64,000 nt of DNA from Frigoribacterium sp. Leaf263 (GTDB lineage: Bacteria; Actinomycetota; Actinomycetes; Actinomycetales; Microbacteriaceae), in assembly GCF_001422285.1 (NCBI RefSeq), contig NZ_LMMO01000003.1, forward strand, positions 763 to 64,762. Direction: 5' to 3'. The stretch's first letter is position 1, and each line of letters opens with the position of its first letter. Positions 15,562 through 16,988 of this stretch are shown here, in pieces. Made by a program: the position numbers and the translations under genes. The notes beneath the pieces were generated by a model. It was not told where the DNA came from. It was given only the letters and a program-made list of their open reading frames with translations, and made no database searches.

Positions 15562-15788
15562 CCGGCCGGAACGATCCGTGACGGGCCGTTCCCTCGCGGG
15601 TGCGGAAGCGGACCCCATCGGAGGCGCGGCGTCCGGGAGGAACGCGGAGTACTGTGGCCGAGCACGCCGCGGATGGCCGCGGATCGTGCCTCGGATCAGA
15701 CCCTGCCGAGTCCGTCGACGGCGACCGCCGCTCGACGGTCGTCGTCTCGGGGCCGGTGCTCCGCAGACCCGATGCGCACGAGGTCCGC

Positions 15789-16988
15789 ATGATCGTCTCC
15801 CCCCGTCATCTCATCGCCCGGCCGCTCATCGGCTGGTGGCTCTCGACGAGCGCCGCATCGTGGCGTCGCCACGACATGCCCGCCGACTCCCCGCACGTCA
15901 ACGCACGAGGAGCCGACCCCGACCGCGTCCTCCTCGCGGGGGATGGAGCGGCGACCGGCCGCGCCGTGCTCACCCACGACCTCGGGCTGCCCGCATCCCT
16001 CGCGCGGGCGCTCACCGGGCGCACGGGTCGGGCGACCGACGTCGACGCCGTCGTCACGGGCGACATGACCGCGCACAGCTGTCTGTCCGCTCTGGCCGAC
16101 GTCGATCTCGAGCGCTTCGACGTCGTCGTCCTGATGGTCGGCGCGAACGAGGCCCTCGCCCTGACACCGGTCCCGGCGTGGGAGGAGGCCCTGGGCGCCC
16201 TGCTCGACGACGTCGCCGGGCGGTCGCCGGCGGCCACGCGCATCCTCGTCCTCCCGATCGCCTCCTTCGGGGCCGTGCCGGGATTCCCGCGATCACTGGC
16301 GCGCGTGGTGGATCGGCACGTCCGGACGATGAACGAGGCGACGTCGGCGCTCGTGGCGCGCCTCCCCGGGGTCGAGGTCGTCCCCGTCGACGCGTCGGCA
16401 GCCTCAGAGCCCGAGGGGTCCTCCGCGTACCGCCGCTGGGCCGAGGCGATCGCGGTGCGCGTCAGCGCCTCCCTCGATCCGGCCCGGGCGGCTGCGCGCA
16501 GCACGGAGGAGGACGACGAGCGGAGGCGTCAGGAGGCGCTCCTCGCCCTCGCCGATCGCCGCCCCGTCACGGAGGAGGACGCCGGGCTCGACGCCCTCGC
16601 CGAGAGGGCCCGGCAGGCGTTCGGCACGTCGATCGCCGCGGTGACGCTCGTCGAGAGCGACGTTCAGGTCATGCGCGCGGCTCGGGGCATCGACCCGGTG
16701 GTCCTGCCCCGGGACGAGGCGTTCTGCGACCTCACGATCCGGCGCGCCTCGCACTTCGTCGTCGAGGACGCGAGTCTCGACTCCCGATACGCCGACTACT
16801 CGATCGTGGCCGGCGATCCGGGCGTCCGATTCTATGCGGGATACCCGATCGAGTCGCCGGACGGACACCGCGTGGGGGCGCTGTGCATCATGGACACCGA
16901 GCCGCGGAGGTTCACACCCCACGACGCCGCGCTGCTCCGCAGCATGGCCGAGGGGGTCCAGGCGCACCTCTGGCGCGACCGGGACTGA
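15789..16988 (+). CDS. SGNH-like domain fused to a GAF domain
   Basis: A 399-aa two-domain cytoplasmic protein. Residues about 40-235 follow the SGNH/GDSL hydrolase fold: block I VLLAGDGAATG, block III VLMVGANEAL and a C-terminal RRWAEAIA helix. The nucleophile Ser of GDSxxxG is replaced (GDGAATG) and the DxxH of block V is missing before SSAYRRWAE, so it may be an inactive, sensory relative. Residues about 240-399 form a GAF domain (FGTSIAAVTLVESDVQVM, CDLTIRRASHFVVEDAS, FYAGYPIESPDGHRVGALC). ATG 15789 after GAGG is preferred to an in-frame extension beginning at 15600. Ligand and output are unknown. Confidence 0.8.
   Translation: MIVSPRHLIARPLIGWWLSTSAASWRRHDMPADSPHVNARGADPDRVLLAGDGAATGRAVLTHDLGLPASLARALTGRTGRATDVDAVVTGDMTAHSCLSALADVDLERFDVVVLMVGANEALALTPVPAWEEALGALLDDVAGRSPAATRILVLPIASFGAVPGFPRSLARVVDRHVRTMNEATSALVARLPGVEVVPVDASAASEPEGSSAYRRWAEAIAVRVSASLDPARAAARSTEEDDERRRQEALLALADRRPVTEEDAGLDALAERARQAFGTSIAAVTLVESDVQVMRAARGIDPVVLPRDEAFCDLTIRRASHFVVEDASLDSRYADYSIVAGDPGVRFYAGYPIESPDGHRVGALCIMDTEPRRFTPHDAALLRSMAEGVQAHLWRDRD

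Follow-up and report, generated by a model that had tools for sequence, protein, structure and literature searches.

A putative pseudoenzyme of the SGNH hydrolase fold fused to a GAF domain in the Microbacteriaceae

Described relatives and architecture of the fusion

The best-known examples of dead enzymes that have acquired regulatory roles are found among kinases and proteases and in a few SGNH domains of eukaryotes. In a studied SGNH lipase, the replacement Ser10Ala abolishes activity (PMC10779480). The OSK domain of Oskar is an inactive SGNH domain in which Ser and His are disrupted and which is linked to mRNA (PMC2848206, PMC12247748), and three of 116 GDSL proteins of Arabidopsis have lost blocks (PMC4757993). 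On the GAF side, the diguanylate cyclase Dcsbis (PA2771), of GAF-GGDEF architecture, dimerises through a GAF domain that has a large pocket, binds neither cAMP nor cGMP, and whose ligand is not known (PMC4937426).

The gene described here lies in a window of 64,000 nucleotides, the whole stretch of DNA that was analysed, from Frigoribacterium sp. Leaf263 (genome of 3.24 Mb in 10 contigs). Its product shares with SGNH/GDSL hydrolases such as EstL5 and TesA the fold, a PF13472 match above the cut-off and the Asn of block III, but it has Gly in place of the nucleophile Ser, has lost the Gly of block II as well as Asp and His of block V, and carries an added GAF domain. It resembles the OSK domain in being an apparently inactive SGNH domain joined to another domain and put to a probably non-catalytic use, whereas Oskar is an insect protein with a LOTUS/OST-HTH partner and no GAF, and a common descent of the inactivation is not implied. 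The plant GDSL pseudoenzymes are scattered single genes, whereas the fusion forms a bacterial fused clade. The GAF domain of Dcsbis is the closest solved one to that of the fusion among the best 50 VIA-align matches, but it controls an attached catalytic GGDEF domain, whereas the GAF domain of the fusion is attached to a probably dead SGNH domain. The same kind of GAF is found in kinase-GAF, SpoIIE-GAF, HisKA-GAF and GGDEF-GAF proteins of Actinomycetes, and the kinase-GAF proteins have the same domain order, with the partner domain first and the GAF last. However, all these proteins carry a catalytic output and their GAF domains branch apart, whereas the fusion has no output domain. Dead SGNH domains are already known from Oskar and plant GDSL proteins. 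On the GAF-fused bacterial family, in contrast, we found no paper in searches of the open-access literature that paired the two domains or concerned SGNH pseudoenzymes or this genus.

The fusion gene (P0001; 15789-16988, forward strand, as are all features of the window given below) encodes 399 residues followed by a stop codon, as read from the open reading frame and Pfam. An RBS-like GAGGT is read in the sequence at 15780-15784, 4 bases 5' of the ATG at 15789, and in the orthologue L012 the open frame extends no more than 10 residues further upstream than the first Met in the alignment. The initial annotation had proposed an SGNH domain fused to a GAF domain with no kinase or output domain attached, and both statements are borne out by Pfam. 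Lipase_GDSL_2 (PF13472) matches residues 63-209 with 41.5 bits (cut-off 32.9), block I sitting outside this match, and GAF (PF01590) matches residues 267-388 with 51.2 bits (cut-off 22.4). At E values up to 1, only GAF and GDSL families were recovered in the window protein, through overlapping models, so that no third domain and no kinase, GGDEF, HisKA or SpoIIE output domain was found in its chain. A third domain was likewise absent in Pfam scans of nine other fusions, in all nine of which the SGNH part falls below the Pfam cut-off.

An AlphaFold2 model of the window protein, built from an alignment of 26 fusion sequences (mean pLDDT 88.3, pTM 0.85), predicts a catalytically degenerate SGNH-fold domain at residues 42-231 (15912-16481) and a linker helix at residues 241-255 (16509-16553), assigned from the secondary structure of the model, which joins it to the GAF domain (residues 267-388 by Pfam, 16587-16952; 238-399 aligned in structure). 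In VIA-align searches, the SGNH part (model residues 42-231) matched EstL5 (8ik1) with Z 19.9 and rmsd 2.4 over 180 residues, and TesA with Z 18.8, while the GAF part matched Dcsbis (4zmu) with Z 24.4, rmsd 1.9 and 34% identity over 159 residues. The best 50 matches are all SGNH proteins (Z 16.5-19.9) except for the Dcsbis GAF at rank 1, with no Rossmann fold among them. The structure prediction that had been suggested earlier as a check thus agrees with the proposed fusion: according to the model, the first domain adopts the three-layer alpha/beta/alpha SGNH fold, and the second belongs to the GAF domains by both sequence and predicted fold. A membrane anchor was considered and rejected, the N-terminal helix being neither clearly hydrophobic nor amphipathic in a helix scan, as was a role in anti-phage defence, the window protein having no PADLOC match.

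State of the old active site

In block I of the window protein (GDGAATG, residues 51-57, 15939-15959), the nucleophile Ser of the GDS motif is replaced by Gly53, within a G-x-G-x3-G-x-(G) pattern. In the block II equivalent (GDMT, residues 91-94, 16059-16070), alignment with the Ser-bearing homologue L067 places Asp92 at the oxyanion Gly, in a column that is sensitive to the alignment; this replacement had been missed by the initial annotation. Block III (GANEA, residues 118-122, 16140-16154) retains Asn120 in the context VGANEA. At the block V site (residues 205-218, ASEPEGSSAYRRWA, 16401-16442), the Tyr-x-x-Trp-Ala helix is present and the Asp-x-x-His is missing, none being found before the last SGNH helix in residues 202-218 (ASAASEPEGSSAYRRWA). 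The earlier reports of a replaced nucleophile and of an absent block V motif are therefore both confirmed. The corresponding blocks of the L067 homologue (genome G036), which lies at the end of an open frame of 862 residues (L067:232-2817), read GDSTAVG, GESGATS, GANDA and DGFHPS. The window genome has eight PF13472 matches, at least four of which (L001, L002, L003 and L005) show GDS, the block III Asn and D-x-x-H, so it also harbors ordinary SGNH enzymes. Contig C3 of the same genome further carries a match reading GDDVT with no visible block V His (L004) and one reading GDSHALA and GTFD with no His (L008).

The conservation of these positions was counted over the family. From 108 rows of the degenerate domain (SGNH*), 76 non-redundant domains were kept at less than 85% identity, and three rows were dropped. 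Two of these are fragments of the broken L123 gene, of which one has the Gly and the other lacks block I; the third is a strongly diverged tandem copy (L051, 4368-7499) in which Glu occupies the nucleophile position. The rows of classes B and C described below, with Ile, Val, Leu, Ala or Arg at this position, were counted separately. Position 53 is Gly in all 76 domains and is the sole invariant column; Gly is also found at positions 51 (75/76), 57 (75/76) and 59 (74/76). The block III Asn is present in 26 of the 76 domains and the block II Gly in seven. The statement that the Asn block and the fold remain thus holds for the window protein, but it does not extend to the family for the Asn. One of the two patterns used for scanning requires Gly at the Ser position and so introduces a bias, which is removed in a subset of 58 rows omitting all pattern-fetched loci; there, Gly stands at position 53 in 58/58, the block III Asn in 23/58 and the block II Gly in 3/58. 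The replacement of Ser, constant in both counts, is therefore not due to chance.

The columns of blocks II and V are alignment-sensitive, and a second alignment puts the block V column elsewhere than the first. Because of this shift, a count of His208 as the block V His (13/76) was abandoned and motifs were counted instead. A D-x-x-H occurs in the last part of the domain in 7/76 and directly before the block V helix in three (L122, L024 and L042), and D-[ST]-P-H was found in five redundant rows, indicating that the decay has been uneven.

Twenty more homologues with lower scores, 19 without a GAF and one with a GAF in the retrieved stretch, have Gly (15), Asp (4) or Ala (1) at the nucleophile position, and Ser in none. 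The Asp-bearing ones (L174, L177, L178 and L181) are GAF-less relatives reading GTDAASG, possibly a third state of the same loop. As a control, the same kind of model recovered four SGNH-only matches from other genomes of the class that read GESTAAG, GANDVL and DRFHPS, so it does detect Ser-bearing homologues where there are any. The window protein has its S-H-D and T-G-R motifs in common with these four, and both motifs are thus ancestral.

Distribution, phylogeny and selection

The search for the same fusion in other genomes, also suggested at the outset, was successful. Some match to the fusion model (E 1e-10) was obtained in 112 of 199 Microbacteriaceae genomes, and a full-length one, running from model position 60 or less to 380 or more, in at least 52 of the 199 and in at least 25 of 85 genera; one of these genomes (G067) has only a copy with an internal stop. 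Among the matches listed for 394 class-wide genomes, full-length fusions occur in three, all of them Microbacteriaceae, and the remaining ones are GAF-only, partial or SGNH-only. In a set of 60 relatives, the matches listed include full-length ones in all 15 genomes of the same genus and in two others. Moreover, a pattern scan of named genomes identified 31 fusion loci in Frigoribacterium, Frondihabitans, Amnibacterium, Naasia, Cryobacterium, Lacisediminihabitans and Curtobacterium, as well as in MAGs; a smaller alignment (A2) was used for this collection scan because the first one (A1) had no stretch conserved enough for scanning. Both domains lie in one frame at 30 of the 31 loci, the exception being Frondihabitans sucicola (L101:9520-11136), where the gene splits across two frames inside the GAF. 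Several intact paralogues are present per genome, and the window genome itself harbors another fusion (C8) as well as an SGNH gene that lacks both the GAF and the Ser (C5). Judging from these sequences, the loss of Ser is a trait of the whole clade and not particular to the window gene.

Some variants were observed along the way. One Frigoribacterium paralogue (L058, L069, L073 and L077) has a long Ala/Pro-rich linker between the SGNH* and GAF domains. Two classes of Frigoribacterium SGNH genes are GAF-less and Ser-less, with a block I of the GSIAVEG type in class B (L059, L060, L063, L064, L066, L076, L137 and L140, L066 being the copy of the window genome) and of the GERGEINLG type in class C (L061, L062 and L065). 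Finally, a contig labelled as an "Acidobacteria bacterium" MAG (L108) has the same gene order as the Amnibacterium loci and is therefore probably misbinned or mislabelled.

In a tree of 72 SGNH domains, a branch with support 100/98 separates 54 Ser-less domains (GAF-fused, GAF-less, and classes B and C with Ile, Val, Leu, Ala or Arg) from 18 Ser-bearing ones; in an earlier tree of 102 rows, 16 Ser-bearing domains stand together on one side (100/97). The block I columns were left in both trees, and the Ser-bearing rows come mostly from one query. With the root placed among the Ser-bearing enzymes, the 100/98 branch points to a single loss of Ser. GAF-less members are scattered among the fused ones within the Ser-less clade, which points to more than one loss or gain of the GAF. 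In a quick search of the GAF tree, 51 fusion GAFs are split by a branch with SH-aLRT 93 from 16 others, taken from kinases, SpoIIE, HisKA, GGDEF and two unassigned proteins.

The window protein is 55-60% identical to its three closest orthologues. Nei-Gojobori dN/dS values between it and these are 0.44-0.49 for the SGNH and 0.38-0.50 for the GAF domain, against 0.19-0.21 and 0.27-0.38 among the three, so that of these four copies the one in the window evolves fastest. Both domains are constrained by purifying selection. Taken together, sequence, predicted fold and tree strongly support the earlier view that the SGNH domain of the window protein is a pseudoenzyme: the enzyme fold is kept, the catalytic residues are lost, and the gene is maintained by selection. 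The PF13472 matches in these genomes, frequently annotated as hydrolases, thus comprise some proteins that are very unlikely to have any hydrolytic activity. Because this bacterial clade spans numerous species and paralogues, has Ser-bearing homologues close enough to align and shows a Ser changed to an almost fixed Gly at position 53, the step from enzyme to binding domain can be traced and tested in it.

Possible function and genomic neighbourhood

The explanation that we favour, with a probability of roughly 0.55, is that a non-catalytic SGNH domain, derived through a single loss of Ser and fused to a GAF domain, acts as a ligand-responsive adaptor and not as an esterase. According to the trees, Ser would have been lost once, in an ancient event, before or at about the time when one branch gained the GAF. 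The non-catalytic module would then have radiated, with one branch GAF-fused; in this branch, the Gly that replaced Ser would have been kept while the other catalytic positions drifted. That the Gly is invariant while those positions drift argues that the loop was recruited for something else, and against simple decay. The protein would be a cytosolic regulator dimerised through its GAF domain, where the GAF, and perhaps also the old SGNH pocket, may bind small molecules without turnover, and ligand binding may reshape the dimer so that it engages a partner protein. The initial proposal of an SGNH domain turned into a sensor is plausible in this light, although the GAF may only dimerise.

A more specific scenario can be put forward tentatively, as a possibility that we do not favour. 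The single loss of Ser would have founded an SGNH-fold receptor clade specific to the Microbacteriaceae, whose former active-site loop would now be rich in glycine, follow a Rossmann-like pattern (G-x-G-x3-G-x-G) and bind a ligand or nucleotide. Together with the GAF, the receptor domain would form a signalling protein that takes two inputs, lacks a catalytic output and has several paralogues per genome, acting by partner binding. The block I pattern resembles that of glycine-rich phosphate-binding loops.

It is somewhat doubtful that the SGNH domain is itself the ligand-binding part, with the acyl/ester cleft kept as a receptor and the GAF only holding the dimer together. The purifying selection on the SGNH core, which has an invariant glycine loop where the active site used to be, would be consistent with such a role, as would the SGNH-only members of the clade and the published Dcsbis structure, which dimerises via the GAF (PMC4937426). 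However, the GAF is equally well conserved, and its RFYAG motif is invariant in alignment A3.

The genomic context was considered next to these domain-based readings. The genes beside the window gene code for a BCCT transporter, a DUF6518 protein, an MFS transporter and an SNase-type nuclease, with no evident link to it. An inspection of gene neighbours had been proposed initially; they were catalogued, and clustering over the window and the 31 loci gave no consistent partner gene. A conserved operon was rejected, the clusters being mostly within-genus synteny (with a crude choice of ORFs that included shadow frames), and blastn (1e-10) found no other gene shared between 22 kb of the window and the three closest orthologues.

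This context bears on a phosphorylation switch, in which the fusion would be the partner or substrate of Ser/Thr kinase-GAF and SpoIIE-GAF proteins with related GAF domains; we regard it as unlikely. Kinase-GAF proteins are frequent in Microbacteriaceae. The L081 locus of a Rhodoglobus MAG has a kinase-GAF gene (L081:3374-4861) that ends about 70 bases before a fusion; another fusion and a copy without the GAF come after the latter. Further kinase-GAF genes are found no more than a few kb away from a fusion in L072 and from SGNH genes lacking both GAF and Ser in L059 and L063. Over the 199 genomes, a kinase-GAF is among the matches listed for 25 of the 52 fusion-bearing genomes against 17 of the 147 others (odds ratio 7.1) and, by genus, for 15 of 25 against nine of 60, these being raw counts not corrected for kinship or genome size. 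The window genome also has two SpoIIE-GAF genes. However, no full-length kinase-GAF is among the matches listed for that genome, a kinase motif search found a kinase gene at only one of 51 fusion loci, that of L081, and the fusion GAFs do not group with those of the kinases.

It is decidedly unlikely that the protein is still an enzyme through other residues of the SGNH cleft, such as His63, His177, Asp52 or Asn120. His63 is present in 66 of the 76 non-redundant domains and Asn120 in the 26 noted above, and in four relatives without a GAF the nucleophile is replaced by Asp. Nevertheless, the GAF-fused members have no Ser, Cys, Thr or Asp at the nucleophile position, and position 52 is variable (N 33, S 15, D 11 and A 9 of 76). 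Moreover, His63 and the TGR motif also occur in the Ser-bearing homologues and are thus ancestral, not substitutes.

Finally, neutral decay of a gene heading for loss is highly improbable: the divergence of the window copy from its three orthologues, larger than that among them and with a higher dN/dS (0.38-0.50), and the broken frames of a few relatives (L101, L123) would fit it, but dN/dS stays well under 1, the frame is intact, the conservation is family-wide and each genome has several intact paralogues.

A gene of the DarT family (ssDNA ADP-ribosyltransferase) was observed at eight of 51 fusion loci, two of them (L098 and L099) in one genome. This proximity was read as local synteny; such genes lie near fusions at L110:9516-10262, L113:4447-5313 and L081:10757-11482.
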